64,000 nt of DNA, taken from NCBI RefSeq assembly GCF_022651205.1, contig NZ_JALCQI010000001.1, forward strand, positions 124,001 through 188,000. Direction: 5' to 3'. Below are positions 2,949 to 55,962 of the stretch, piece by piece. Below the pieces are notes generated by a model, which saw nothing but the letters and a program-made list of their open reading frames with translations, made no database searches and was not told the DNA's origin. Every line of letters starts with the position of its first letter. The first letter of the stretch is position 1. The position numbers were made by a program, and so were the translations under genes. The DNA is from Limosilactobacillus sp. GTDB taxonomy: Bacteria; Bacillota; Bacilli; Lactobacillales; Lactobacillaceae.

Positions 2949-3082
2949 CTTTAACCCACCTTTGCTATAATAAATTTAGCGGCAGGTAGTGAATCCTGTC
3001 GCGTATACTAACAATAATACATTTAGTTAATATTAAAAGTCAATTAGAAAATTAGATTATTTTTAAGGAGATTCAAGCGATT

Positions 3083-3496
3083 ATGGCAATTGAAATTACT
3101 AGTGGTGCTGTTGTTTATCGGCAAAATAATAGAGAAATTGAATACCTCTTACTAGAAAGCCAAAATAAGGGTCACTTCTGGGGATTCCCTAAGGGCCATG
3201 TTGAGGGCAAAGAAACGCTTGAAGAAACCGCTAAACGAGAAATTAAAGAGGAAACACAATTGGTCCTGCCAATCGATACCAGTTTTCACGTTTATACTGA
3301 ATATGACTTACCAAACGGCAACCGGAAACAAATGACGCTGTATACTGCTGATTTGACTAAGAATGAAGATATTCATTTACAAGCAGAAGAGATTAAGAAT
3401 AGTGGCTGGTTTAATTACCATGATGCTCGAGAACGGCTGACATATGATAATTTAAAGCAGTTGCTAGACCAGGTTAACGCTCATTTGACAAAGTAA
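3083..3496 (+). CDS. NUDIX hydrolase (Ap4A hydrolase-like)
   Basis: 137 aa with Nudix box GHVEGKETLEETAKREIKEET; SD aaggag upstream. Confidence 0.93.
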   Translation: MAIEITSGAVVYRQNNREIEYLLLESQNKGHFWGFPKGHVEGKETLEETAKREIKEETQLVLPIDTSFHVYTEYDLPNGNRKQMTLYTADLTKNEDIHLQAEEIKNSGWFNYHDARERLTYDNLKQLLDQVNAHLTK

Positions 3497-6642: not shown

Positions 6643-9288
6643 ATGTGGAATGCGATTAAAGCGGAATTTAAAAATATTCTGCACAATCGACTATTATTAA
6701 TTTCCACTACCGTTATTTGTATTATCCCGTTCCTTTACAGTATCTTTTTCCTAAAGTCTGTTTGGGATCCTTATGGGAGTACGGAAAATTTGCCGGTAGC
6801 GGTTGTTAACAAGGATGTTCCGGTTGAATATCGTGGACAAACGATGGATATCGGTCATCGAATGGTCAAAGAATTAAAGAAAAACAAGCAATTAAAGTGG
6901 GAAATCGTCTCACCTGAAAAGGCACACTATGGATTAACCCACCGGAAATACTACACGGTTGTTACGATTCCAAAGAACTTCTCTAAGGACGCAACAACTG
7001 TTTTGAACAAGCATCCTCAGCAAATGCAACTGAAGTATGAGACGAACGGTTCACTAAACTACATTGGTGAAGTTATCAGTCAGTTGGGGATGACTAAGCT
7101 AAACGAAAAGATTCGGGCACAAGTTACCCGGGCATACGCTCAAGCAATGTTCAAAGCCCTCCACACGGTTGGTAAGGGGATGGGTACTGCTGCTAGTGGT
7201 GCCAAACAACTGGACAATGGACTGGTAACCCTTCAAAGTGGGATGAACCAGTATGTTGCCGGGGTTTCCCAAGTGAACAATGGTGTTCAGAAGTTACGGG
7301 TTAGTGTTGCTCCATTAGCCGCTGGTGCTCAACAATTAGCATCTGGTAGCCAAACACTTGCTAACGGAATCCGCCAATACACTGGTGGTGTTGGTCAGCT
7401 TGCCGCTGGATTAGGTAAATTGAATGCTAACTCGGGTGCACTGAACTCAGGCGCAAGTCAATTGCAAAGTGGACTGGGTCAATTGAGAGATAATTCTTCT
7501 GCAATTCAAAGTGGAACTGGTGATTTAGCAAAGTATACTGGTGAGTTAGACAAAGAAGTAAACGGTAACGATAGTCAGCTAAGTCAGTTAGGTAATATGG
7601 ACTTTGAAGGTATTATGGGAGCAATGAACCAGGCTCAGGATCTACAAAAGAGTCTTGCTCAATTGCAAACTGGTTTGACTACTGCTAAAGCTGCTTTGGC
7701 TGGTGTCCAGGAAAGTGCTGGTAAACTTCAACAAGCTTCTGGTGCATTGGCTGGTGTTAGTCAGGTTAAAGGACAATTAACCAGCGCTGCAAATGGTGCC
7801 GGTAGTGTTGCCAAAAGTGATGCTGAAATAGCCGGTAAATTACAAGCTCTTGCAGGTTCAACTAGTGATAATAATATTAAGAGTCAACTAGGCGCGTTAG
7901 CTACACAGGCTGGAGCAAATGCTAAAACTGCTGGAGACAGTGCTAAAACTATTGCTGATGTTGGAACTACTTTGAATAGCCTAAATAGTTTAGGAAGTTC
8001 TTTAAGTGATATGCAATCACAACTTGGTCAACTTTCTCAGATGTCAACAATCCTTGATAATGCTGATGGTACAATCAAGCAAGCTAATACATTGCTTAAT
8101 ACTTTGAATGGTTACAAAGGTACTTTATCCAGTTTGTCTGGTTCAAAAGATAAAATTAAGGCATTGCAATCTGCTACTAGCCAAATTGCTGGTGGTGCTA
8201 ATACCCTTAATACTTATGTCACCCAATACACTAACGGTGTTGATTCCGCTGCCGTTGGTGCCGGAACGTTGACTTCTGGTATTGGTCAATACACTGCCGG
8301 TGTTGCTCAAGCAGGAGCAGGTGTTGGTCAATTAACTGCCAACTCTGGTCAATTGAACTCCGGTGCTGGTCAACTTGCAGGCGCTCTTGGTCAATTGAAT
8401 GGTCAGGTTCCTGCATTGACTGCTGGTGTTAATCAATTAGCTGCTGGTACCCAACAATTAGTTGATAATTCACCAGCACTTGTTCAAGGAATTACCAAAT
8501 TAAACGTTGGTGCTGGTAAGTTAGCTGATGCTCTGGGTAAGGGTGCAAAGACCATTAATGGTATTAAGACCTCTAACCGGACAGCTAAGATGATTGCTGA
8601 ACCTTCAGTTGAAAAGCACTCTAACTACAGTTACGTACCAAACTACGGTCACGCACTGGCACCTTATGTTCTGTCAGTTGCCCTTTATGTTGGTATGCTT
8701 GTCTTCAACTTTGTTTACCCAATTCGGCGGGTCGCAGATCCAAATGCTTCTGCAACCGCTTGGTGGTTCAGTAAGGTTGTTGTTGGTGGAATCGCCGCAA
8801 TTGCCATGGCTGTTGTTGAATGTGGAATCATGATGATGTGTGGATTAACAATCGACCACGTTCCATCATTCTTTACCACAACGATCCTCTTCGGGTTGGC
8901 TTCGATGGCTGTTGTAATGTTCTTATCAATGACCTTTGATAACCCTGGTCGGTTTGTTGCCATGGTTCTTCTGATGTTACAACTTGGTGGTTCTGGTGGG
9001 ACGTTCCCAATGGAAGTTACCATGAAGTTCTACAATGTCATTCACTGGTACTTACCAATGACCTACTCGATCCTTGGTCTACGTGATTCAATTAGTGGTG
9101 GTTTAGGTACCCACTACACAATGTTCTGCAACCTTGTCCTATTAGGAATCGCGGTTGTCTTTAACCTCTTGTTACTATTAACAATGAAGGGAATTGCATC
9201 CCACGAGTTCCATGCACCAAGTGTTGCTAGTGAGAAAGAAAACGAACACGGCCCAATGGGTGAGGGCGATGGCTTTAATTCAAAATAG
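6643..9288 (+). CDS. YhgE/Pip domain-containing membrane protein
   Basis: 881 aa; N-terminal TM and C-terminal multi-TM block flanking long Q/L/G-rich repeats (QLAxG, NSGxLNSG); preceded by TetR regulator. Confidence 0.9.
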   Translation: MWNAIKAEFKNILHNRLLLISTTVICIIPFLYSIFFLKSVWDPYGSTENLPVAVVNKDVPVEYRGQTMDIGHRMVKELKKNKQLKWEIVSPEKAHYGLTHRKYYTVVTIPKNFSKDATTVLNKHPQQMQLKYETNGSLNYIGEVISQLGMTKLNEKIRAQVTRAYAQAMFKALHTVGKGMGTAASGAKQLDNGLVTLQSGMNQYVAGVSQVNNGVQKLRVSVAPLAAGAQQLASGSQTLANGIRQYTGGVGQLAAGLGKLNANSGALNSGASQLQSGLGQLRDNSSAIQSGTGDLAKYTGELDKEVNGNDSQLSQLGNMDFEGIMGAMNQAQDLQKSLAQLQTGLTTAKAALAGVQESAGKLQQASGALAGVSQVKGQLTSAANGAGSVAKSDAEIAGKLQALAGSTSDNNIKSQLGALATQAGANAKTAGDSAKTIADVGTTLNSLNSLGSSLSDMQSQLGQLSQMSTILDNADGTIKQANTLLNTLNGYKGTLSSLSGSKDKIKALQSATSQIAGGANTLNTYVTQYTNGVDSAAVGAGTLTSGIGQYTAGVAQAGAGVGQLTANSGQLNSGAGQLAGALGQLNGQVPALTAGVNQLAAGTQQLVDNSPALVQGITKLNVGAGKLADALGKGAKTINGIKTSNRTAKMIAEPSVEKHSNYSYVPNYGHALAPYVLSVALYVGMLVFNFVYPIRRVADPNASATAWWFSKVVVGGIAAIAMAVVECGIMMMCGLTIDHVPSFFTTTILFGLASMAVVMFLSMTFDNPGRFVAMVLLMLQLGGSGGTFPMEVTMKFYNVIHWYLPMTYSILGLRDSISGGLGTHYTMFCNLVLLGIAVVFNLLLLLTMKGIASHEFHAPSVASEKENEHGPMGEGDGFNSK

Positions 9289-9295
9289 AGTGTGA

Positions 9296-9500
9296 CTCAG
9301 CAGAAAACTTGCGGAAAGCTAGCAATTTCTCCTGACGAAGGCGACTTGCGCCTAAAGAGTGAACCAGAAAACTTGTTTTCGTCTGTGAGCCTTCACAAGG
9401 CTAACTAGAATTCTGACTACCAACTTGTTGGTGGCAGAATTCAGTTGGCTACTGAGGAAGGAGGTTGCTAGCTCTAGCAAGTTTCTGAGGAACACGTTTA
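9296..9500 (+). repeat. Intergenic hairpin-array repeat, copy A
   Basis: Similar to the reverse complement of 19949-20193 (shared gtgaaccagaaaacttgttttcgtctgtga..., hairpin with CAACTTGTTG apex, agctctagcaagt); contains several hairpins. Confidence 0.75.
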
Positions 9501-9569
9501 AACTATGCTGCATTAGAACCCATAATAGGGATCATGTTCGCAGTAAATATTTCTTAACAATCATGCTAA

Positions 9570-19881: not shown

Positions 19882-19929
19882 CTGAATTCCTCCCCAAATA
19901 TTATTGTTTCATTATAGTATATTAGAGCG

Positions 19930-20285
19930 TGTTCGTTCCAAAGAGTTTTTCACTCCTTTACCGCGACCGCCACCTTCAGAAGCCTTACTGCAGCTGAGTT
20001 GAGAACGGCTCCCCAGGGACTTGCTAGAGCTAGCTACCTCCGATAACTTCTACTGCAACTGAGCCTAGAATGACGCAGTAGCTGATTGACTTCTCACATC
20101 AACAAGTTGATAGTGAGAAATCTAATCAGCCTTGCGAGGGTTCACAGACGAAAACAAGTTTTCTGGTTCACTCCTTTACCGCGACCGCCACCTCCGTCTA
20201 ATTAGTCCAGACTCGATTGCAAGTCAATCATCGTCTGGACTTCCTTAGTACTCGGTGGCTAGTTCGTCGCGGCGCGCTCTCTCAT
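19930..20285 (-). repeat. Intergenic hairpin-array repeat, copy B (inverted relative to copy A)
   Basis: Reverse complement matches 9296-9500; contains ttcactcctttaccgcgaccgccacct twice (19949-19975, 20167-20193). Confidence 0.75.
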
Positions 20286-42095: not shown

Positions 42096-42267
42096 CAAAC
42101 TAGAATGATTCTCAATAAATTATTGATATGTAAACTAAGTATGAAATTAATATTTGGCTATTAGTATCAGTGATTTTCGCGATAGTAATTCACTTTATCT
42201 GGTTAAGTCAGGCAAGATGAATTGCTGAATAGTAAGAATTTAATCTCAGCGTAGAGGGGTGTTAAAT

Positions 42268-45200
42268 TTGGGTAAAAACAATCAACAACGAAGAATGATC
42301 CCTGAAAGAAAGAACTACAAGTTATATAAGGCTAAGAAACAGTGGATTACTGCGTGTGCAACGGCACTGTTAGCCTTTGGAACAACGGCATTGATGAATG
42401 TTAGTGCGAGTGCGGACACAAATTCAACGAACAGAGATCCAGAGACTGAAATTGAGGCTCCTTCGGTTAAGGATGCTCTTAATAGTAGAAGTCCAAAAAG
42501 CAACAGCAGCGCAAGTAGTAGCACAAACAAGGGCCAATTAGCTACTCAACAAACTTCAGAGACAGCTCAAACAAGTGTTGCTACTAATGCGGTAACTTCA
42601 TCTGCTAAAGCCGCGCCTTTGACTAAAACAATAACTGACACGGCTAAAAGCCAAGATAATGGTCAAACGACGGCTAGTTCTGCGTCAACTGTAAAGAGTG
42701 GCTTAGTACAGCCAGCAACAACTAGTGATCAAATTAATCAGCAGAGTTCACAGCAAACCACTGCGGATAAATCAGCAAATCATAATGACCAAAGCGCTGC
42801 TTCATCAGTCAAAGTACCGGTTCCAGTAATGCCACATGCTGACAGTAGTGAAAATGCTGCACCAGTTGCTTGGACCGACGATGTTGCATATGTTGTGGTA
42901 GATACTAATTTAACTAATCTGGCAAGCAAATTCTTGCAAAATGGGGCTGAACTTGAAGCCGCTGGGGCCAAAATTACTTGGGTCGGTGACGTTCCTAAAC
43001 CAACGCAAGCTGATATAGATAGCCTTCAACCGATTAGCGGAAAAGTTCGGGTTCAATATGCTGACGGCACCAGTAAAGAAGTTGAGGTTGGCGCTATGGT
43101 TGAACCTCATGCTACCATCACATCGAATACTTTCTATTATGTTAACAACGTTGGTGATCGAGTTGATTCAGCAACGGCAGCCGATGCTAATGGCCGGAAA
43201 CTTTGGGACCAGGACGATAGTAGTAAGAGTGTCTTAAATACCCAAGACCTTTATGATCCGGGTTCAGCAACTGCTAAACTTTTAGCGCCCCTTGATACCA
43301 GTACGATTGGTATTCATTGGGCTGAAGTTCAAGTAACTGATACTAGTGTTTTTTGGAATGGAGAAGGAACCGTCAGCCAACAAGTTATTGGGACACCGTA
43401 TATTGTTAAGTTGCCATATGTGGTTAAAACCTTAAAGCTTAAGGATGATATTCCAATGGCTAGTGGTGATCCGACCATTAACGCCCAATTAGCTACTAGT
43501 CTTGGTAATGATGCCCAATTGGCTTTTAATCTCGGTACTGGTACTAATACTAATGTAGCAATGGGGGAATATTTTTATCAAGATTATGCGCTAGCAGTGG
43601 CTTTGGGCATTGTCACTAAGGTATCTAATTGGACAGCGCCAACAGATTTGAAGAATACGAAAGAGAATCATTTTACTTTGACTCTAGCTCAATTGCCAAA
43701 TGCACCAGAGCAAAATGTTCAGGTTAAATATATCTCGGATATTCAAGTTGCCCCCATTTATATTTATAATCAAGGAACAACTTATACTAATGGTCTTGGA
43801 CAAAATAGTGTTTTAATTAAACAATTGATTGCGGATGGTGAGATGAATGGGCAAGTCCATATTGTTTTGCCTGATGGCACCAAGTTAAAGGCTACTGATT
43901 TGTCTAATTTGCAGATTAAACTAGCAAATAGAGGACAAGGAATCTTTAAGGCTACTTTTACGGTTGGCTATAACGGCGTGAATAAAGCTGGTCAGCCAAA
44001 TGTTTTCACTGGTGTAGGGAATATAAATGCTTTACCAGGCTTTAATGACCAAGTTAACAAATGGTATGCTAAATTAAATAATACTAATAAAGCCACTTAT
44101 CAAGAAGGCATGCATGCTCAATGGACTAACGCCAGTGCAACAATTACACCACTTCAGCCATCAATAGCACAAGGTACCCCAGATGTAGTTGATATTAGTA
44201 ACGGCCCGATTATGGAAGCTGATAACCAAGTTTTGTCGACCCTCGTTAAGAATCCAGCTGATCCACAGCGTGGCTATGGTGTTACCAAGCCCAACCAATT
44301 TACCGATGCTAATGGAAATAAGCTTCCAGAAGGGCAATGGCCTGAAGGGACCAAGTTTGAATGGGCTGGTAAAGATGGGGCCAAGAAGTTGGTACTAGAT
44401 AAAGCCGGTGAAACCAGAACTGGTGATGTTAAAATCACGCTACCATCTGGTAGTACTTATACTGTCAAAAACATTACGGTTGTTTCGCGTGCAAAAGTTA
44501 AGTTAAAGAATGAGACGGTTGATTACGGTACCAAGTTAACAGCCAAAGATTTGGTTACTAACTTAGATGTTTTTCCAGAAGGGACGACTTTCCAGTACAT
44601 TGCTAATGAGCCTAAATGGACAGTCCCTGGTTCTTACAATACAGTTACTATTACCGCCACTTACCCAACCGTTGATGAAAATGGCAATCCAATTACAGGT
44701 AAGGATGCCACTATTACGACCGATCCAGCAAAGTGTGATGTAGCGGTCAATGGTCTGCGGACGATTACTGTTCTTGAGGGGACCACTGATATTCCTAGCG
44801 CTTCATCTGTCCTTAATTTGCCAACGGACTGGGCAGCACACGATACGCCAGAATGGGTAACTACACCTAATAGCACGCAAACCAACGAAGGTGAAATCAA
44901 GGTTCATTACACGGAAAGTGGCTTGGACCAGACGATTAAGGTTTACGTTAATGTTATTCCTAGGACATCCCTTTCTAATGTGAAGGACTTCTTCACTAAT
45001 GGTAATCGTTATGATGGTCAAACCGGTAGTATTGCTAATGGTGTAAACCAAGGCGGCATTTTAACTAAGGCTAACGGCAATGCAATTAACTATCAAGCTT
45101 ATACTGCAAGTGGTCAATCGGGGAAAGTTTCTACGATTACTAAGGGTGATGCTAGTTACACGCCAACTTATTCTTTGTCAGGGTTACAGACTAATACTGA

Positions 45201-48200
45201 TGGCAGTTTAGCTAGTGGCAAGCAGAATGTAACGATTAAGGTCTATGTACCAAAGGGAACAATCGGTGCTAAGACTGACGATCAAGGCAGTTATTACGAA
45301 TTAAAAGATACGGTTAATGTTGCCCAGAAGGTTAAATTCCAGTTCGTTGATCAATATCACAATGATGCGCCAATTGAGAATATTCCAACTTATTCACAAG
45401 AGTTTATTCCTGGAGTCCAAGCTAACCTTAATTTCAGGATGCAGGTGCCGAACGGCTACGAACTAGCATCTGGTACTTCAATTCCAACGTCATATACTTT
45501 AGCTGAATTTACTAAGAATCCAATCACTGTTAATGTGCTAATTCACCAGAAGATGCACTTCTATATTACTTTCCATGATGAAGATTCAAAGAAGGATTTA
45601 GGTACAGTTGAGATAGCTGACAATTGGAATGGTGGATATCATGATGTGACATCACAACTTCATCTTCCGGCCGGTGTTAATGTAAACGATTATGAGTCAG
45701 TTTCGGCTTCTGGTGTGCCAGAAGGTGTAACTTTAGCTGCCAGTTATTGGGATCCTTTTAGTAAAGAAAATGCTACTTGGTGGATTCCAAATTGTAAATG
45801 GGATAAAACTTTAGAAGTTGAGTCTAAGCTATGTGATGCAACGATGACCATTAACTTGAAGCATAAAACTACGGTAACGCAAGAGCAGCAGGAAAGAACG
45901 GCGACTGTTCATTATATTTATGCTAATGGTAACTATGCTGGGCAAAGTGCAAATCCTAATGCAACAGCTACTTTTATGTACACTCGTGAGAAGACCCATG
46001 ATGATGTAACTAAGAAAGATACCTACACTGATTGGAAATTTGATAATAAGTTCAATAATGCTAATTACAAAAATGGAATTTCTGATTTCCATCAAGGTCA
46101 ATGGACCATTAATAACGGCACTGCCACAGTAACTGTTCCAACCAATGATGGCTACACTGCTACAGATTCTGGTGACTGGACTGATAATCAGAATGCTGCT
46201 GAATTCAACTTTGATGGTAAAGACGCTTTAACCGACACAGCAACGAGTTACGGTCAAAAGAAAGATCATACCATCTACTACGTCCAAAATAAGACAGAGA
46301 GTAGAACAATTACTGAGTACTATAGAGCAGTTAATGATGATGGTACTCCTGGTGAAGAACTACAAGCGCCATCTCACATTGATGTTCACCTTAAGAAAGA
46401 TTTAGTTAGTTTTGCTACTAATGGCTCGACTGATCCAACTCACTTTACGATTAAGTATGCTGACAATTGGACAACAGCATATGCTATAAATGATCCAAAA
46501 GAATATAGTAATCAAGTCGGAAGTTGGGACTGGTCAAGCAATAGTAGTATTAGAAATGCTTTTCCTGTAAACATTACAAAGGATGGTAAGGAATATCATT
46601 CAACTGATTTGCCTAATGGAACTAACCAGACCAATGTTATTGATGGCGGATATGATACTGCAGTCTTTAATTTAGTGGGTGATCTTAATACTGCCTTTAC
46701 TGCTCAAGGTGAAGGTCAAAAGGCAAGTTCACAAACAATCTTCTATCTTAGAGATGATCAAGTTCAACAAGAAAAGAAGCGCACGATTGAAGTCACTAAA
46801 CCAGGTGAAACTGAAACAGAAACTTACCCTGCAGGAAGTGCAACTTTAACGAGAACGGCTAAACGTGTGTTGAATGGTTTTGATTTTGGCGACTGGAATA
46901 CTGGTTCATGGACTGCCACTGATCAAGGTGGCGAGATTCCTGGGTATAGCCGGAGCATTGAAGTAAGTACTGACGGTGGTCAAACCTGGACTGCCGGGAC
47001 TGCTGCTGATTTAGGTAAAGTTACCGTAACAAATAAAACTAAGAATACGATAGTTAAAGTTACTTACGGTGCGGTTGCCACTGCCAAATTAACTGGTAAT
47101 GGCTCCAGCACTTACAACGGCAGCGCAATTACTAACGCTGATTTAACTAAGGGCATTCACGTCGTAGTAAATGGTCCAACCGCTTCATCAGGTACTTACA
47201 AGCTTCAAGCTGGGGATGTTGAATTCTCAAGCGATGGCGGTAATACTTGGACAAAGAAAATGCCAATTAATGCTGATACCTACCAAGTACGCCTAAGTAC
47301 CCAAGGCGAAGACAACATTAAGGATCAGTTTGGCAACAATAGTATTGTTTGGACGCAAGACGGCAAGTCAACGATCACTAGTGACGCTACTTATATCATT
47401 AAGAAGCTAGAAGACGATTCCGTCATGGCAAATGCCGAAACTGGTAACTACGAGATGACGTACAATGGTGCGGCTCCTAGTTCAATTGATGCAAGCAAGT
47501 TCAAGTTCACGATAACCGTGAATGGTCAAACCGTTAACCTTGATGCAGCCGGCTTAACCTCAGCTGACTTTGCTTGGGTTGACGGCCAGGCACCAAAGGA
47601 TGTTGGTACTTACCAAATCAAGTTGACTGATGCTGGTTTAACTAAATTGCAAGCAAACAACTCAAACTTCATTTTGAAGAACACGGGCAATGGTACCTTT
47701 ACCATTAATCAAGCTGATGCTTCGGCTACGCTTGCCGGTAGTGGTACTCGTCCATACAACGGTCAAGCTGTCACAGTCGATGATTTGAATGTCAGTGATG
47801 ATCACAATAACATCACTTTGACTTTGCATTATCCAAAGGATGGCAATAGCAATTACTCAACTACGGTTAATTTAACGGCTGATGACTTTACTTGGAACAC
47901 GCTAAACGGTCAAGCTCCAACCGCTGCTAATACTCAACCTTACACCATCACAATTAAAGCTGATGCTGTGCAAAAGATCATTGAACAAGCAGTTGGTAAA
48001 GGTCAAAACGGTGTAAGCAACGTGAAGTTCGCTAACGGTGCAATCACTGGGACAGCTAACTACACCATTACGCCACTTGAAACCAATGCTGAATTAGTTA
48101 ACGTTACTGAAGGTAATTACAGTAAGGTTTACGATGCTCAAGTAACTAACCAGATTGATTCAGGCAAGTTCCAAATTACGGCGAATGTTGATGGTCAACC

Positions 48201-51200
48201 TGTTGTCCTTAACATGGATGGCATTACTGGTGGCAGCTACCAATGGGTTGATGAAGAAGGTAATCCTTTAACTGATAATCCAAAGAACGTCGGTACTTAC
48301 TACGTGAAGTTAACGGATACTGCTTTTGCCCACTTGCAAGCAGAGAATCCTAACTTCAAGTTGAGTAATACTGGTTTAGGCGTTTACACGATTACACAAG
48401 CTGACGCTACTGGAACTTTAAGTGGTTCTAACAGCAAGGTTTACGACGGTAGTGCAATTACAACCGGACAATTAAATAACAACGGCGACATCAAGGTTAG
48501 CTTGAACTTCCCAGGTGTAAATGGTCAAACTTACACTTTGAAGCAAAACGACTACACCATTAGTGGCAACGCTACTGATGCGGATGACTACACGATTACC
48601 TTAACTACTACTGGTGTTACTAATGTTGAAAACTACATTAAGTCACTAGCTGGAACTGGTCAAAATAGTCAAAGCAATGTGAAGTTCGCTGATAATGCCA
48701 TTTCAGGTACGGCTAACTTTACAATTACCGCTTCAAAGAATGTCGTTAGTGTTGGCGGCATACAAACTGAGACTTATAAGGGTTCACCATATAACGTTGT
48801 TTACAAAGCTAATGGTGATAACAGCGTCACAGTTTCAATCGCCAAGGCTGCTGGCAATAATGCTGGTGCTTTAGCAAGTTTGACCAATGTTCACCTTGAT
48901 TCAGATGACTTCAAGATTGTCAATGGTCCGGCTAAGAATGTTAACAGCTACAAGGTTGCTTTAACTGACGCCGGTTTAGCTAAGATCAAACAGGCTCTTG
49001 GTAAGAATTACGAAATATCCGTTGATCAAACTGCTTTTGGTACTTTAAAGATTAATAAATACCAGGCTAGTGCTAAGTTAACGGGTGATCCTAGTCAAGC
49101 CTATACTGGTAATCCGATTGCAGATTACTTGAGCAAGTACCATGTAGCATTAGATGAACCAAATGCTTCAAGCTACTCACTAGTTGCTGGTGACCTTGAA
49201 TTTAATGTCAACGGTCATTGGGTAACTGAAGCTCCAGTTAATGCTGGTAAATACGATGTTCGCTTATCACAAGCTGGTTGGAATCACATTAAGGCTATTA
49301 ATAGTGCTAATGTAGAATGGCCAACCGATGCTTCAGCTGGTACTGGTACTTACACTATTACTCAGGCCAAAGTTACAACTGAACTTAGCGGTAGCAACTC
49401 CATGACCTATACTGGCTCGGCAGTAACGACAGCTGACTTGTATGCTGATGGTTCGACAATTAAGGTTGTCATTAGTGGTACTGGCATTTCTAACTTGCCA
49501 CAGACTTTTGAATTAAAAGCTGGCGACTATGTATGGCAAACCATTGATGGTCAAGCACCAAAGAACGTTGGTACTTACACGATTAAGTTAACTGCTGCTG
49601 GAATTAATAATATTCAAAAGCAGATTAACCAAGCTGTTGGTGAAGGCAATGTTGCTTTGATCACGACCGCTGACAAGGCTGGTACTGCTGACTTTGAAAT
49701 TAAGCAAGCAGTCGCTGAGAACGTTCAACTGTATGGTGACGAAAAGTCGACTTACGATGGTAATCAGGTTAAATTTGATCCAACAAAGGCAGATGTAAAG
49801 AACAACTTTGGTTTCCACAATGTTGCGGGCTTAACAATTCCAGAATTTACGAGTGCAGACTTTGATTGGTTTGATAAGGATGGTAATCCGATTTCTGCGC
49901 CAACGAACGCTGGTCACTATATCTTGAAGTTGAATGCTCAAGGTGAAAAGAAATTTGCTGATGCCAACACGAACTACACTTTTGTTAAGGATGGCAAGAG
50001 CACGATCACTGGTCAGATTAACTATATTGTTGATCCAGCTGAATTAGTAATTACGGTTGCTGGTAGTGCTTCAAAGGTCTTTGATAATCAACCGGCAAAG
50101 CTTACCCAAGCTCAAATTGATGCTGGCGATATCAAACTAGTTTGGGGCAATTCAGATAAAGAACCGACTGGTTTAGGTCAATTTAACTTAACTCCAGCTG
50201 ACTTTGAGATTGTCGATGCTGATGGTCAACCTGCAGTTCATGCGAATGTTGGTAAAAATGTAGACGGTACATCAGTAACAGGTACACCATATCAAGTTCG
50301 TTTAACCGTTGCTGCACTTGAAAAGATTAAAGCACTCTCTGGTGCAAGTAATTACACAATTAGTCAGTCAAAGAATCATGGAGATTACTACATCTATGAA
50401 CACAGGGCTGAGTTAACTTTAACTGGTAACCAGACGACTGTTTATGGAACCTACTTACCATTTGATCCGAGTGCTTATACGTTAGACTTTAGTAATTGGC
50501 TCGAGAGCAGCGCCAAGCCAAAGATTACTTGGCAAAACGGTGTCCTTTATGTTAATGGTCAACCTAATACGAAGAACGTTACTTGGCAAGCTGGTGACCT
50601 TTACGTTGATGGCTATCCAGATGGTAGTCTTCCAACTAATGTCGGTTCTTACCAGGTTAAGATTTCGAAGCACTTAACTGATGAACTGCGTCAATTATTC
50701 CCAGACTATGACTTCTCTGGCAATATTGGTAGGGCTGTAATGGCACTGCTTAGGAGCAGCAATAGTAGTGTTAGCGATAGCGATGTCGAGGCTAGTCATG
50801 AGCCAGCCAGCTATGTTATTACACCAGCAACCACTACGGTAATGATTAATGGTGCTGAACATGTGAAGTACGTTGATGGTGAAACTCCAGAAATTAAGTA
50901 TGGAGACAATGGCTACACCCTTTCTATCACGGCACCGGTTAAACCGGAAGGCGCAACGGAAACAACGACTAAGCAGATTTATACTGATGTTCAGTTAAGT
51001 AATGATGATCTTGAATTTGTCACTACACCAGGGGATGTTGGTACTTACCAAGTTAAGTTATCCGCTAAGGGATTGCAGAAGCTGCAAAAGCTTACTGGAT
51101 CAACGAACTATGATTGGACGCAAGCTAGTGACGCACGTGCTAACTTCATCGTTGACCAGATGCCAGTGACGATTACTGTTGGCGGTGAAAAGTCCGTTGA

Positions 51201-54200
51201 CTATGGCTCAACAGACTGGTTAACCACGATTAAGGAAGATCCACAAGTAAATGATTATACGTTAACCGTGAAGACCGAAAATGGTTCAACCTTGACTTAT
51301 CAAGCTCAACCTGGTGACTTAGTCTTCAACCAAACGCCAGGAAATGTTGGGCCTTACCAGGTAGCATTATCTGCTCAAGGGTTAGCTCACATTAAGACCA
51401 AGTTAGGGACTAATTACGCTTATCCACAAGATGCTGTTGATGTAACTACTCACGGTACGTTAACGGTTAAGCAAGGTGAAGTTACTGTAACTTTGACCGG
51501 TAATGATGGCAAGACTTATGACGCTAAAGAAACAGTAGCTAGTGAACTGAATCCAACTAAATACAATCTTGGGTATTCAGTTGTTGTTTACTCCCCAGAT
51601 GGGCAATCGCAAACTTTGACTTTAGCAGCTGATGATTTACAAATTGTCGGGGATGCTACTAATGTTGGTACTTATCAAGTTGAGTTGTCAGCAAATGGGC
51701 AAAGCAAGCTAAAGAACTTAACCGGCAATAATGGTGACAATTACAAGTGGACCTTTACGCCAAAAGCGCATTACATGATTACTGCAGCGACTGCTCAGGC
51801 TGACTTAAGCGGTTCAAACGAAAAGATCTTTAATGGTCTTGCGGTAACGACGCCAGAGCTTAATAGTAATGGTCAAATCTTAGTTCACTTTACTTACCCA
51901 GGTAGTACTGAGCAAAGTACTTACACGTTGCAAGAAGGCGACTATACATGGGTGAATGGCAGTGCGCCAACGAATGTCGGGACGTACACCATTAACTTGG
52001 ATCAAGATCAGATTCTGCAACACTTGCAAGATCGTCTGAAAGAGTTAGCAGGGACTGGTCAAGATGGCGTTGCTAACGTTACGATTTCAACTAATGATCT
52101 GACTGGCCAAGCAAGCTTTACGATTACGCCAAAGGAAATTAGCAATGTTACAATTTCTGGTGATGATCAAAGCAAGGTTTACAACGGTCAAGGGGCAAAT
52201 CTTGATGTGAATGGCTTGACAATTAAGGCTGATGGCACGCTTGAAGGAACGCCATTAGTTGATACCGGTTTAACTGCCGATGACTTTGACTGGTACAGTG
52301 CAGCTGGCAAGAAGCTGGAGAATGCTTCAGTGAATGTTGGCTCCTACCAAGCACGGCTAAAGGATAGCTTCCTTGATACATTGAAGCAGAAGAATCCAAA
52401 CTACAGCTTCGATGCCGCTCAGGGTGTCATTAATTACGACATTAAGCCAGCTCCGGCAACAGTTACGATTGGCAATTCTGCAAGTCGTGATTACGATGGT
52501 AAGTCCACATCAGCTGCCGATGTTCAGGTAAGCTGGAACTCAACTGGTTTTGTTACTGGTGAGAACCTGAACCACACTGGTGTAACCGCTAGTGACTACA
52601 CTTGGTATACTAAGAATGCCAATGGCACTTACACCATCATGACCGGTGAGCCAACGAATGCTGGTACTTACTACTTGAAGCTTAATGATGGTGCAATTGC
52701 ACAAATCAAGCGTGATAATCCAAATTACAGCTTTGCAAACGATGCATTTACTGGTGAATTCACTTACACGATTAACGCAGTCGCTGGTACGGCAACGTTG
52801 AGTGGTCAGAATTCCAAGACTTATGATGGTCAAGACATTTCATTGGCTGATCTGAATAGCACCGATGGAAACATCGAGGTTAAGTTTGCCTTCCCAGGTA
52901 GCACTGACAGCGATACTTACCAACTTCAATCCGGTGACTACACGATAGGGCATAATGCGGCGAAGGTTGGTAATTACACCATTAAGTTAAGTGACCAAGG
53001 TTTGGCTAACTTACAAGCAGCACTTGATAAGTATGCTGGTAATGGCAACGTAACGTTAGATGCTGATTCGCTGCAAGGCTCTGCAAGTTTCAAGATTAAT
53101 CCAAAGGTAGCTAACGTCACGCTTAGTGGTAACGATGACAAGACTTACGATGGTCAACCGGCAGTAATTAATCCTGATAAGGGTAGTTTGACTGCTGAAG
53201 GCCTTATCAATGGTCAAGGCCTGAACACCACTGGTTTAACTGCTGGCGACTACGAATGGGTTGACGCTCAAGGTAATAAGATTGATGCCCCAACTGATGC
53301 AGGCACTTACTATATTCGTTTGACTAAGGCCGGGTTAGATCAGCTTCAGGCGGATAATCCAAACTACCAGCTTAGTGAAAGTGGTCGGATTACCTATGTA
53401 ATTAGTCCAGCAGAAGCTAAGGTTAAGATCGCTGGCTTTGAACAAGAAACTACTGCTAAGATCAATGCTGGTAATTACCACCTTGATGTGCCAGCGGGCG
53501 TAACTGTTCCGGATGGCTTAGAGTACGAATTTGCAAGCACGCCAAACCAATCTGGTACTTACTTGATTTCATTAACGCCAGCCTCGATGCAGAAGTTGAT
53601 CAAGGCAAATCCAAACTATGACTTGAAGATTTCTTCAACTGCCGAGTTTGAATTAGATGCTACCTTAACGATTGAGTTCCAAGACGCTGATGAGAACAAC
53701 AAGCAGGTCGGTAAGACGATTACCAAGACCGGTGTCGCTGATTCAACAATTAACAATCTTGGCTTAACGATTCCGAATAAGTACGAATTAGCTCAAGGCC
53801 AAACTTTACCTGGAGATTACACATTCGGTACTTCGCTAGAGCAACATTTGTACATCAAGTTAGTTCACAAGACTAAGCAAGATACTCAAACAAAAGATGT
53901 TACTCGGACAATTAACTATGAAGGTTTAATTCCTGATCAATTATCACAAATTCCAGATAGTCAAAAGAAGCAAACCGTTGAATTCAGTCGGACGGTTAAG
54001 ACTGATCTGGTAACTGGAAAGACGGTTCCTGGTAGTTGGACACCGGGTGATGGTCAATTTACATTTGTTGGCTTTACACCAAAACAGTTTAATGGTTTAG
54101 TAGCAGATAAAGTTGTAGCTAATGAAGTTGTAACGCCAGATAGTAAGAATAGTTCAATTACTATTACTTACAAGGCAGTGCCAGAACCAGAGCAGGGTCA

Positions 54201-55962
54201 ACAGGTAATTCACTATGTTGATGCTGATGAAGGTGACCGGTTAATTAGTGCTCAAACAGTTACGGGAACTGAGGACAGTCAAATTGACTTTACTCCAGAG
54301 GTTCCAGCAAACTACGAGCCAGTTGGCAAGTTACCGTCAACGATTATGATTAAGGGCGGTATTACTACCATTGCTCTAAAGCATAAGACTCAAGATATTA
54401 GTGATTCTAAGACAGTCACCCGGACGATTATTGATGAGTTGCCAAGTGGTACCAAGACGATAACACAAAAGGTAACAATTACTCATAAGGGTGTACTTGA
54501 TCTAGTAACTAATGTGGAAACTTGGGATCCTTGGACAACTGCTACGCTCGCTGAATATGTTCCAGAAGTACCTGATGGTTATACTGCAAGTATTAGTGAT
54601 GTACCTGAAGAAACTGTAACTGATAAGACGCAGAATTCTACGGTAAAGATCACTTACAAGGCAATCTCACAGCCTCAAGAAAATCAACAAGTAATTCAGT
54701 ATGTTGATGATGACGAAAATGGTCGACTTATTAGTACGCAAGTAGTTGAAGGAACGGAAGGTAGTGAAGTTACATTTACTCCAGAAATTCCGGCAAACTA
54801 TGAGCCTGTTGGTGATGTACCAAAGAAAGTAACCATTGCGGCTGGTATTACTAAGATTCACTTGAAGCACAAGACCACTCGTACCAGTCAAACAAGGGAT
54901 GTTACTCGAACAATCATTGAAAAATTCCCATTTGGCACAAGCAAGACTAAGACGCAAACAGTTACCTTAACGGAAACCGGAATTAAAGACTTAGTAACTG
55001 GCAAGACCAAGTGGAATAATGATTGGAAGACAGGTGAATGGAGTGCATTTACTCCAGATGAGGTTCCTGGTTATAATGCTGATCCAACTAGTGTAGCTGC
55101 TGAAAAGGTAACTGGTGAAACCAAGGATAAGACAGTCAAGATTACTTACGCTCCAAATGAGCAAACAGGTAAGATCTCCTACCAAGATAAAGATGGCAAA
55201 GAAATTACTTCGACGCCACTTTCTGGCAAGACTGATGAGCAAATCAATGTTGATCCAGTCGCACCAGCAGGTTGGGAAATCATCCCAGGTCAGGACATTC
55301 CAAAGACAGTTATCGCAACTGCTAATGGAATTCCAACTGTTATCGTAAAGGTTCAACGTATAGTAATTCCACCGGTACCTGAAACGGCTACCGAAAAGGT
55401 TCAATTCGTTGATGAATCTGGGAATGTGGTTGCTAGCCAAGATTACAGTGGTGACCTTGGTCAGACTATTCCAGTAGAACTTACTGTTCCAGCTGGTTAC
55501 AAGCTAGCTGCTGGTCAAGAATTACCAACAGAGATTAAGATTGAAAATGGTGTCATTACCATTAAGGTTGTGACTGAAGGTTCTGATCATCCGGACCACC
55601 CAGACCAACCAGTAAATCCGGATCATCCAGTAAACCCAGACCAACCGGTAAATCCCGATCATCCAGATAATCCTAACCAACCGGTAACACCAGATCACCC
55701 AGAAAATAATGGTGATAATGCTGGTAAACCAGGTGAAGGTGGCAATGTTCCGGGACACGGCAATGCAAATCCTGGTCATATTGCAAATGACAATTCAATT
55801 TCTTCTCAAATTAACCATCACGCCAACGGAAACCATAACAAGACAAACCAATTACCACAGACTGGTAACACTAACAACGAAAAGGCAGCAACTCTTGGCT
55901 TCCTCTTCGCGGGTCTTGCAAGTATCTTTGGCCTTACGGGATTACGGAAGAAGAAAAAGTAG
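42268..55962 (+). CDS. Giant LPXTG surface protein with KxYKxGKxW-type signal peptide, MBG repeats and MucBP/Mub-like repeats
   Basis: Up to 4567 aa; KLYKAKKQW signal, ~20 MBG-type repeats (e.g. ATLSGQNSKTYDGQDI), MucBP-like (VIHYVDADEGDRLIS), P-rich wall domain, LPQTGNTNNEKAATLGFLFAGLASIFGLTGLRKKKK. Probable start TTG 42268 by alignment with second gene (track start GTG 42259). Confidence 0.9.
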   Translation: MGKNNQQRRMIPERKNYKLYKAKKQWITACATALLAFGTTALMNVSASADTNSTNRDPETEIEAPSVKDALNSRSPKSNSSASSSTNKGQLATQQTSETAQTSVATNAVTSSAKAAPLTKTITDTAKSQDNGQTTASSASTVKSGLVQPATTSDQINQQSSQQTTADKSANHNDQSAASSVKVPVPVMPHADSSENAAPVAWTDDVAYVVVDTNLTNLASKFLQNGAELEAAGAKITWVGDVPKPTQADIDSLQPISGKVRVQYADGTSKEVEVGAMVEPHATITSNTFYYVNNVGDRVDSATAADANGRKLWDQDDSSKSVLNTQDLYDPGSATAKLLAPLDTSTIGIHWAEVQVTDTSVFWNGEGTVSQQVIGTPYIVKLPYVVKTLKLKDDIPMASGDPTINAQLATSLGNDAQLAFNLGTGTNTNVAMGEYFYQDYALAVALGIVTKVSNWTAPTDLKNTKENHFTLTLAQLPNAPEQNVQVKYISDIQVAPIYIYNQGTTYTNGLGQNSVLIKQLIADGEMNGQVHIVLPDGTKLKATDLSNLQIKLANRGQGIFKATFTVGYNGVNKAGQPNVFTGVGNINALPGFNDQVNKWYAKLNNTNKATYQEGMHAQWTNASATITPLQPSIAQGTPDVVDISNGPIMEADNQVLSTLVKNPADPQRGYGVTKPNQFTDANGNKLPEGQWPEGTKFEWAGKDGAKKLVLDKAGETRTGDVKITLPSGSTYTVKNITVVSRAKVKLKNETVDYGTKLTAKDLVTNLDVFPEGTTFQYIANEPKWTVPGSYNTVTITATYPTVDENGNPITGKDATITTDPAKCDVAVNGLRTITVLEGTTDIPSASSVLNLPTDWAAHDTPEWVTTPNSTQTNEGEIKVHYTESGLDQTIKVYVNVIPRTSLSNVKDFFTNGNRYDGQTGSIANGVNQGGILTKANGNAINYQAYTASGQSGKVSTITKGDASYTPTYSLSGLQTNTDGSLASGKQNVTIKVYVPKGTIGAKTDDQGSYYELKDTVNVAQKVKFQFVDQYHNDAPIENIPTYSQEFIPGVQANLNFRMQVPNGYELASGTSIPTSYTLAEFTKNPITVNVLIHQKMHFYITFHDEDSKKDLGTVEIADNWNGGYHDVTSQLHLPAGVNVNDYESVSASGVPEGVTLAASYWDPFSKENATWWIPNCKWDKTLEVESKLCDATMTINLKHKTTVTQEQQERTATVHYIYANGNYAGQSANPNATATFMYTREKTHDDVTKKDTYTDWKFDNKFNNANYKNGISDFHQGQWTINNGTATVTVPTNDGYTATDSGDWTDNQNAAEFNFDGKDALTDTATSYGQKKDHTIYYVQNKTESRTITEYYRAVNDDGTPGEELQAPSHIDVHLKKDLVSFATNGSTDPTHFTIKYADNWTTAYAINDPKEYSNQVGSWDWSSNSSIRNAFPVNITKDGKEYHSTDLPNGTNQTNVIDGGYDTAVFNLVGDLNTAFTAQGEGQKASSQTIFYLRDDQVQQEKKRTIEVTKPGETETETYPAGSATLTRTAKRVLNGFDFGDWNTGSWTATDQGGEIPGYSRSIEVSTDGGQTWTAGTAADLGKVTVTNKTKNTIVKVTYGAVATAKLTGNGSSTYNGSAITNADLTKGIHVVVNGPTASSGTYKLQAGDVEFSSDGGNTWTKKMPINADTYQVRLSTQGEDNIKDQFGNNSIVWTQDGKSTITSDATYIIKKLEDDSVMANAETGNYEMTYNGAAPSSIDASKFKFTITVNGQTVNLDAAGLTSADFAWVDGQAPKDVGTYQIKLTDAGLTKLQANNSNFILKNTGNGTFTINQADASATLAGSGTRPYNGQAVTVDDLNVSDDHNNITLTLHYPKDGNSNYSTTVNLTADDFTWNTLNGQAPTAANTQPYTITIKADAVQKIIEQAVGKGQNGVSNVKFANGAITGTANYTITPLETNAELVNVTEGNYSKVYDAQVTNQIDSGKFQITANVDGQPVVLNMDGITGGSYQWVDEEGNPLTDNPKNVGTYYVKLTDTAFAHLQAENPNFKLSNTGLGVYTITQADATGTLSGSNSKVYDGSAITTGQLNNNGDIKVSLNFPGVNGQTYTLKQNDYTISGNATDADDYTITLTTTGVTNVENYIKSLAGTGQNSQSNVKFADNAISGTANFTITASKNVVSVGGIQTETYKGSPYNVVYKANGDNSVTVSIAKAAGNNAGALASLTNVHLDSDDFKIVNGPAKNVNSYKVALTDAGLAKIKQALGKNYEISVDQTAFGTLKINKYQASAKLTGDPSQAYTGNPIADYLSKYHVALDEPNASSYSLVAGDLEFNVNGHWVTEAPVNAGKYDVRLSQAGWNHIKAINSANVEWPTDASAGTGTYTITQAKVTTELSGSNSMTYTGSAVTTADLYADGSTIKVVISGTGISNLPQTFELKAGDYVWQTIDGQAPKNVGTYTIKLTAAGINNIQKQINQAVGEGNVALITTADKAGTADFEIKQAVAENVQLYGDEKSTYDGNQVKFDPTKADVKNNFGFHNVAGLTIPEFTSADFDWFDKDGNPISAPTNAGHYILKLNAQGEKKFADANTNYTFVKDGKSTITGQINYIVDPAELVITVAGSASKVFDNQPAKLTQAQIDAGDIKLVWGNSDKEPTGLGQFNLTPADFEIVDADGQPAVHANVGKNVDGTSVTGTPYQVRLTVAALEKIKALSGASNYTISQSKNHGDYYIYEHRAELTLTGNQTTVYGTYLPFDPSAYTLDFSNWLESSAKPKITWQNGVLYVNGQPNTKNVTWQAGDLYVDGYPDGSLPTNVGSYQVKISKHLTDELRQLFPDYDFSGNIGRAVMALLRSSNSSVSDSDVEASHEPASYVITPATTTVMINGAEHVKYVDGETPEIKYGDNGYTLSITAPVKPEGATETTTKQIYTDVQLSNDDLEFVTTPGDVGTYQVKLSAKGLQKLQKLTGSTNYDWTQASDARANFIVDQMPVTITVGGEKSVDYGSTDWLTTIKEDPQVNDYTLTVKTENGSTLTYQAQPGDLVFNQTPGNVGPYQVALSAQGLAHIKTKLGTNYAYPQDAVDVTTHGTLTVKQGEVTVTLTGNDGKTYDAKETVASELNPTKYNLGYSVVVYSPDGQSQTLTLAADDLQIVGDATNVGTYQVELSANGQSKLKNLTGNNGDNYKWTFTPKAHYMITAATAQADLSGSNEKIFNGLAVTTPELNSNGQILVHFTYPGSTEQSTYTLQEGDYTWVNGSAPTNVGTYTINLDQDQILQHLQDRLKELAGTGQDGVANVTISTNDLTGQASFTITPKEISNVTISGDDQSKVYNGQGANLDVNGLTIKADGTLEGTPLVDTGLTADDFDWYSAAGKKLENASVNVGSYQARLKDSFLDTLKQKNPNYSFDAAQGVINYDIKPAPATVTIGNSASRDYDGKSTSAADVQVSWNSTGFVTGENLNHTGVTASDYTWYTKNANGTYTIMTGEPTNAGTYYLKLNDGAIAQIKRDNPNYSFANDAFTGEFTYTINAVAGTATLSGQNSKTYDGQDISLADLNSTDGNIEVKFAFPGSTDSDTYQLQSGDYTIGHNAAKVGNYTIKLSDQGLANLQAALDKYAGNGNVTLDADSLQGSASFKINPKVANVTLSGNDDKTYDGQPAVINPDKGSLTAEGLINGQGLNTTGLTAGDYEWVDAQGNKIDAPTDAGTYYIRLTKAGLDQLQADNPNYQLSESGRITYVISPAEAKVKIAGFEQETTAKINAGNYHLDVPAGVTVPDGLEYEFASTPNQSGTYLISLTPASMQKLIKANPNYDLKISSTAEFELDATLTIEFQDADENNKQVGKTITKTGVADSTINNLGLTIPNKYELAQGQTLPGDYTFGTSLEQHLYIKLVHKTKQDTQTKDVTRTINYEGLIPDQLSQIPDSQKKQTVEFSRTVKTDLVTGKTVPGSWTPGDGQFTFVGFTPKQFNGLVADKVVANEVVTPDSKNSSITITYKAVPEPEQGQQVIHYVDADEGDRLISAQTVTGTEDSQIDFTPEVPANYEPVGKLPSTIMIKGGITTIALKHKTQDISDSKTVTRTIIDELPSGTKTITQKVTITHKGVLDLVTNVETWDPWTTATLAEYVPEVPDGYTASISDVPEETVTDKTQNSTVKITYKAISQPQENQQVIQYVDDDENGRLISTQVVEGTEGSEVTFTPEIPANYEPVGDVPKKVTIAAGITKIHLKHKTTRTSQTRDVTRTIIEKFPFGTSKTKTQTVTLTETGIKDLVTGKTKWNNDWKTGEWSAFTPDEVPGYNADPTSVAAEKVTGETKDKTVKITYAPNEQTGKISYQDKDGKEITSTPLSGKTDEQINVDPVAPAGWEIIPGQDIPKTVIATANGIPTVIVKVQRIVIPPVPETATEKVQFVDESGNVVASQDYSGDLGQTIPVELTVPAGYKLAAGQELPTEIKIENGVITIKVVTEGSDHPDHPDQPVNPDHPVNPDQPVNPDHPDNPNQPVTPDHPENNGDNAGKPGEGGNVPGHGNANPGHIANDNSISSQINHHANGNHNKTNQLPQTGNTNNEKAATLGFLFAGLASIFGLTGLRKKKK

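Follow-up and report, generated by a model that had tools for sequence, protein, structure and literature searches.

What kind of sequence places the same imperfect hairpin twice, in opposite orientations, within one stretch of a Limosilactobacillus genome, and why do the two copies differ by changes that leave the pairing intact? The window analyzed here comprises 64,000 nucleotides of contig NZ_JALCQI010000001.1 (positions 124,001 to 188,000). The initial annotation had aligned the reverse complement of 20080-20131 (copy B) with 9399-9450 (copy A). The letters quoted for both hairpins proved exact when the sequence was read again, and the apex CAACTTGTTG and a bulged A are present in both copies. 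The matching hairpins are copies of an element of about 105 nt that has spread through Limosilactobacillus. The genome that contains the window (G000, 1.53 Mb, 86.8% complete) has 54 BLAST matches to the copy B interval and 22 hits of a covariance model (R1).

What is conserved among the copies is a core of about 105 nt, which comprises two hairpin domains and fixed linkers and includes a bulged A and a tandem G·A pair. By comparing core-bearing with core-free copies, we found that the core limits, NGGAGTGAACC...GCTACTGC, are identical in three contexts and in both orientations, and no target duplication was seen at the boundaries in these same comparisons. In the folded core, helix P1 (with the bulged A and the tandem G·A) and its capping hairpin are joined by the fixed linker YGCAAG to a long second hairpin.

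Copy A occupies 9287 to about 9520 on the plus strand and begins right where the gene at 6643-9288 ends. Its parts are the following:

9287-9354, plus strand: left end AGAGTGTGA and 5′ arm of the long hairpin
9355-9455, plus strand: core (R1 hit, E-value 7.7e-25; context comparison)
9399-9450, plus strand: main hairpin P3/hp2 (sequence read)
9456-9491, plus strand: 3′ arm of the long hairpin (whole-element fold, -92 kcal/mol)
9492-9520, plus strand: 3′ module ACACGTTTAAACTATGCTGCATTAGAACC

The core of copy A is lodged in the 3′ arm of its long hairpin, in the context GCGCCTA-core-GGAAGG. A core-free version of this hairpin, with GCGCCTA directly followed by GGAAGG and reading GCGCCTAGGAAGG, is found in other copies. 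The start of copy A plus the preceding base forms TAG, the stop codon of the gene (TAGAGTG). No element is present at this site in G006, G010, G067 and G045, where the proteins run past the end of the window protein; read from the DNA, the gene ends in ..GDGFNSK in the window and in ..GDGFTSDGKN in G006 and G045. In this comparison, copy A has removed the last codons of the gene (..FTSDGKN* in relatives) and supplies its stop codon. The end of this gene seems to be a recurrent target, filled in other clades and empty in nearer relatives. Elsewhere in the window, an open frame of 4567 amino acids (42259-55962) probably encodes a giant surface protein.

Copy B lies on the minus strand between two divergent genes and is a mosaic of several modules. 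It had been recognized correctly as a second copy, but the limits first given for it, 19949-20241, were too short; the copy spans about 19924 to 20282. In the order of its own strand, it consists of:

20178-20282, minus strand: left-end module, a long nested hairpin starting with AGAGAGCGCGCC (similar left end at site B in G006 and G045)
20075-20177, minus strand: core, comprising the P1/hp1 domain, linker and P3/hp2 domain (R1 hit, 124 bits, E-value 1.4e-28; limits from contexts with and without the core)
20137-20175, minus strand: domain 1, P1 with bulged A and tandem G·A, and the hp1 cap (covariation register, pair counts)
20080-20131, minus strand: domain 2, the main hairpin P3/hp2 that had been noted at the outset (sequence read; helix 4 of the covariation counts)
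20047-20074, minus strand: first 3′ module, TTCTAGGCTCAGTTGCAGTAGAAG type (recurs in other copies)
20006-20042, minus strand: orphan 3′ arm of another long-hairpin module, GGAGGTAGCTAGCTCTAGCAAG (matches the copy A 3′ arm, 9456-9491)
19982-20005, minus strand: second 3′ module
19949-19977, minus strand: 29-bp duplication of the hairpin/core junction (second copy at 20167-20195, 28 of 29 positions identical)
19924-19948, minus strand: outer end, an inverted left end AAACTCTTTGGAACGAACACGCTCT (reverse complement of AGAGTGTCTTCGCCCCAAAGAGTTT-type starts elsewhere)

The left-end start AGAGAGCGCGCC is a degenerate form of AGAGTG(T/C)GAGCC, and the two 3′ modules are separated by the orphan hairpin arm. 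The ends of copy B are AGAGAG.../...GCTCT; copy A and most other copies end in a different 3′ module.

Known RNA families do not account for the core. Rfam gave no match to the window at the gathering threshold, and relaxed Rfam scans of the window, L. alvi, L. reuteri-type and g27 copies gave nothing credible at the core. Group I and group II introns and the known ornate RNAs were ruled out because they had no Rfam match. A T-box leader was considered on account of GGTGGCGGTCGCGG, a copy B segment similar to the AGGGTGG...CCGCG motif of T-boxes. This segment, however, forms the 3′ arm of the hairpin at the left end, where the Rfam scans report no T-box. We found no published report of the element in a literature search restricted to open-licence papers. 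A survey of bacterial stem-loop families included one Lactobacillus, L. johnsonii, which lies outside Limosilactobacillus (PMC2267715). The structured-RNA family is apparently undescribed so far.

Two alignments were used to evaluate the proposal, originally drawn from two copies, that substitutions in the hairpin are compensatory. The 43 copies of alignment A1 come from the window's clade and from L. alvi. Among its paired cells, 87.4% can pair, as opposed to 74.4% in shuffled alignments and 30-45% with partners slid, and doubly changed cells number 179 (59 ± 7 in shuffles). One pair shows all four Watson-Crick types about equally. Alignment A2 has 50 mostly diverged copies; they were aligned with R1, so the counts are biased towards most of the helices of that model, and with the corrected structure 94.1% of paired cells pair (67.5% shuffled, 34-44% in slid registers). 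Here 459 cells are doubly changed (131 ± 13 shuffled), changes occur on both sides in 32 of 35 pairs, a Y-R pair is found as CG in 22 copies and UA in 18, and the covariation score is 0.692, compared with 0.210 ± 0.010 for shuffled and 0.06-0.12 for slid alignments. With more homologs, pairing is thus kept far more often than broken, and the claim of compensatory substitution holds on both alignments.

The register of P1 was revised during this analysis. A first version (G22-C64, G23-C63) was dropped, as columns 21-66, 22-65, 26-62, 29-59 and 30-58 covary and give the register with the bulged A. Since the P1 pairs counted differ from those imposed by the model, P1 is an independent check, whereas the other helices lean on the model. 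The bulged A of P1 is present in 48 of the 50 A2 copies; at the tandem pair, G·A occurs in 38 and A·G in 42 of the 50, with Watson-Crick substitutes in several others. The bulged A, the tandem G·A, a second bulged A and the linkers are conserved across species and genera, and the core loops are conserved between genera. The family strictly keeps one single-strand fold by paired mutations.

The initial annotation had left RNA and a DNA cruciform as alternatives. On the sense strand, A2 has 77 G·U and 23 A·C combinations. Relative to dinucleotide shuffles, the core folds with z-scores of -4.8 (copy B) and -4.3 (copy A) on the stated strand, and of -3.1 and -2.8 on the opposite strand. A cruciform predicts no such strand asymmetry, which RNA or single-stranded DNA does; the excess of G·U over A·C and the better fold of one strand therefore favor a single strand. 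A cruciform is unlikely, and we infer that the folded molecule is RNA.

Matches to R1 were found in 42 of 54 Limosilactobacillus genomes, with 1-61 copies each. In a sample of 301 genomes of the family, 16 had matches, and these fall in 2 of 40 genera (Limosilactobacillus and one other). A degenerate pattern search recovered only Limosilactobacillus (alvi, portuensis, urinaemulieris, vaginalis, frumenti and avistercoris) and one uncultured Lactobacillus bin, which places the window in a Limosilactobacillus close to L. portuensis and L. vaginalis. By DNA similarity, Latilactobacillus sakei and Secundilactobacillus paracollinoides also have the core; there it lies on plasmids (L314, L315 and L316, positions 3001-3106), next to asnB and an IS6 transposase. 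These plasmids are a possible route between genera. The same type of search detected no core in phages.

The copies differ in arrangement between lineages. In the second genus (G334, L224, positions 1501-2374), cores form an array with alternating orientation and two core variants. In L. alvi, with 61 R1 hits (L071, L072, L086 and others), the core sits within a fixed element some 230 nt long; behind it comes a terminator hairpin, GG(C/G)(T/C)GGGAAGAAAC..GTTTCTTCCC.., whose 5′ arm resembles the element start GAGGTTGGGAAAAAA. The window's own genome has a subtype with a longer first hairpin, GAAATTGATTTATCAATTTC (L008, L018-L025, L028 and L029), represented by about a dozen near-identical copies antisense to the surrounding element. 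This near-identity suggests what may be a recent burst.

Core presence, site and orientation vary between species. In the window's clade, the core is lodged either way round within larger hairpin modules, forming BOX-like mosaics. The proteins of the two genes beside the window copies are 91-94% identical to those of G004, G006, G010, G045, G067 and G068. Site B is empty in G004 and has different module mixes in G068, G067, G010, G006 and G045, in two of which the core is reversed. In G041 (L190, positions 1501-1610), a bare core interrupts a gene that we named, from its translated sequence and not from a family search, as an Rpn-like nuclease/transposase; both halves remain open, and an uninterrupted paralogue (3119-2717, 88% identical) lies alongside. 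No target-site duplication was seen at this intragenic core, with at most an ambiguous G. Together, the filled and empty sites show a mobile element, or at least one that was repeatedly gained. The two-copy comparison from which we started was sound as far as it went, but had overlooked that the family is a mosaic, mobile repeat.

A different arrangement was found in the copies for which we use the working label "L. reuteri type." These read GGGAGCGAGACAG...TTATGTCACAGTCCC and run codirectionally with the gene, starting just after its stop codon; a T-tract usually follows them. Most of them have a stem followed directly by a T-tract at the 3′ end (A-tract, GGGA...TCCC, T-tract), which copies A and B do not. 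L. reuteri-type elements are also located downstream of the 3′ end of the copy A gene homologue in G069, G058 and G017 (L169, L175 and L179).

At all nine L. reuteri-type sites that have alignable relatives (selected for alignable flanks; they document replacement for the L. reuteri group but not for the window's clade), the relatives have an ordinary intrinsic terminator hairpin exactly where the element lies. At the filled sites, both the A-tract and the T-tract are retained, in some cases along with outer pairs of the former stem. For example, five relatives have ATATAAAAAACTTCAGCCC..GGGCTGAAGTTTTTTTAG, with small differences, where G056 has ATATAAA-element-TTTTTAG. None of the nine replacements is accompanied by a visible target-site duplication. 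A gain of the element is simpler to assume than a loss: the plain hairpin is common to several relatives, and the element is mostly confined to a single genome. These alignments show an element that substitutes for intrinsic terminator hairpins in the L. reuteri group. Flank complementarity of the L. reuteri-type copies is weakly copy-specific (3.17 vs. 2.43 ± 0.38), and for this reason we do not propose an extended host stem as a general feature.

Given these results, we consider it probable that lactobacilli harbor a small mobile non-coding element whose core these hairpins form, and that it works as follows. The folded strand would be RNA, co-transcribed at the 3′ ends of mRNAs. Selection on the fold may act because the fold must work as a transcription end, or must not spoil one, and because it may be what is copied or recognized during spread. 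Spread would occur by template switching or by single-strand-mediated exchange of hairpins, and not by cut-and-paste with target duplication; this is suggested by the way in which entire hairpins have been exchanged at the base, at the A-tract/T-tract or at module arms. Against universal sense transcription, many long-hp1 cores of the window's own genome are antisense and copy B lies in a divergent intergenic region. A bolder form of this proposal, which we put forward tentatively, is that a mobile structured RNA swaps itself for intrinsic terminator hairpins by RNA- or ssDNA-templated exchange, keeping the A-/T-tract base, and that the terminators may thereby become bistable (P1 vs. the outer terminator stem).

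We think it unlikely that the element is instead a host-serving structured regulator linked to 3′ ends or terminators (such as a switch that forms either P1 or an outer terminator stem) and copied because it is useful. In L. reuteri-type copies, 12 of 16 positions of the 5′ segment GGGAGCGAGACAGAAG could pair with CTTATGTCACAGTCCC at the 3′ end, and this predicted pairing would exclude P1, with a T-tract usually next. The likeness of the L. alvi 5′ end to the arm of the following terminator hairpin and the conservation of the core loops between genera are likewise consistent with a regulator. However, the host genes are not related to one another, the species of this one genus have anywhere from 0 to 61 copies, antisense and intragenic copies occur, and the flank complementarity is only weakly specific to individual copies.

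Less probable again is a requirement for the fold in single-stranded DNA, with the element as a non-autonomous relative of IS200/IS605-type elements or REPs whose hairpins a Y1 transposase recognizes and joins in trans. Folding of one strand, insertion in both orientations without visible target duplication and conserved unpaired bases in the hairpins would all fit, and Y1 transposases occur in 34 of the 54 genomes of the genus. However, no Y1 transposase is present in the window genome (87% complete) or in G006, G024, G067, G068 and G022, the latter with 5-12 copies each, and this missing co-occurrence rules out Y1 as a universal partner. In addition, the position of the L. reuteri-group copies, codirectional with the gene and behind its stop codon, is more natural for a transcribed element.

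It is improbable that covariation arose with no selection at all, the arms of a parasitic repeat being corrected by template switching within the hairpin (quasipalindrome correction). The mosaic modules, the junction duplication in copy B and the exchange of whole hairpins do point to frequent template switching. Yet such correction would erase imperfections, and the bulged A's, tandem G·A and linkers persist over species and genera, while G·U pairs remain in excess over A·C. Finally, a cruciform or double-stranded palindrome recognized by a DNA-binding protein, although suggested by strong palindromes in intergenic DNA, is very improbable, as it would expose both strands equally, in conflict with the strand asymmetries above, and as long asymmetric linkers are conserved.

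The preferred reading, a mobile element transcribed as RNA, touches on the long-standing question of how small structured repeats such as BOX and REP arise and move. The family has very strong covariation support and is found in common gut and food lactobacilli, among them laboratory strains that are tractable. Its before/after site pairs, with a plain terminator in one species and the element in a neighbor, make spread and effects on mRNA 3′ ends directly testable. If true, the hairpin-swap reading would define a class of mobile element by hairpin replacement and not by insertion.

Several known systems share features with this element. Like REP/BIME repeats with their RAYT (Y1) proteins and like IS200/IS605-derived MITEs, it has imperfect hairpins, single-strand asymmetry and intergenic spread with no obvious target duplication. 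It differs from REP/BIME in its larger two-domain fold and in that several carrier genomes lack a Y1 protein. Group IIC introns are structured RNA elements that favor intrinsic terminators. In contrast to these, our element is about 105-150 nt, which leaves no room for a reverse transcriptase frame, gave no group II match in the Rfam scans, and replaces the terminator hairpin rather than lying behind it.

The best analogue appears to be the pneumococcal BOX/SPRITE repertoire (PMC3049150). BOX repeats of Streptococcus pneumoniae and S. suis are described there as modular, structured intergenic repeats that the authors regard as parasitic, some of them co-transcribed with operon ends. The element shares with BOX, as presented there, short intergenic placement, separately varying modules, strong secondary structure, nested insertions, and many copies in one lineage with few or none in its neighbors (PMC3049150). 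BOX-type modularity is seen here in the varying number and order of modules, in copies A and B and at site B in six genomes. The element belongs to another lineage and has another sequence (the two were not compared letter by letter), and its conserved core, with non-canonical motifs, is found alone, intragenic and in either orientation within other modules. Replacement of terminator hairpins and a conserved two-domain core are features of the element that do not appear in the consulted passages of the BOX paper (PMC3049150). SPRITE, as described in the same paper, is a pneumococcal repeat that resembles a rho-independent terminator and lies at the 3′ ends of convergent genes, and is thus, like the element, a terminator-linked repeat tied to gene 3′ ends (PMC3049150). 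According to that description, SPRITE is a simple terminator-like hairpin, whereas the element would put a complex two-domain RNA in the hairpin's place (PMC3049150).
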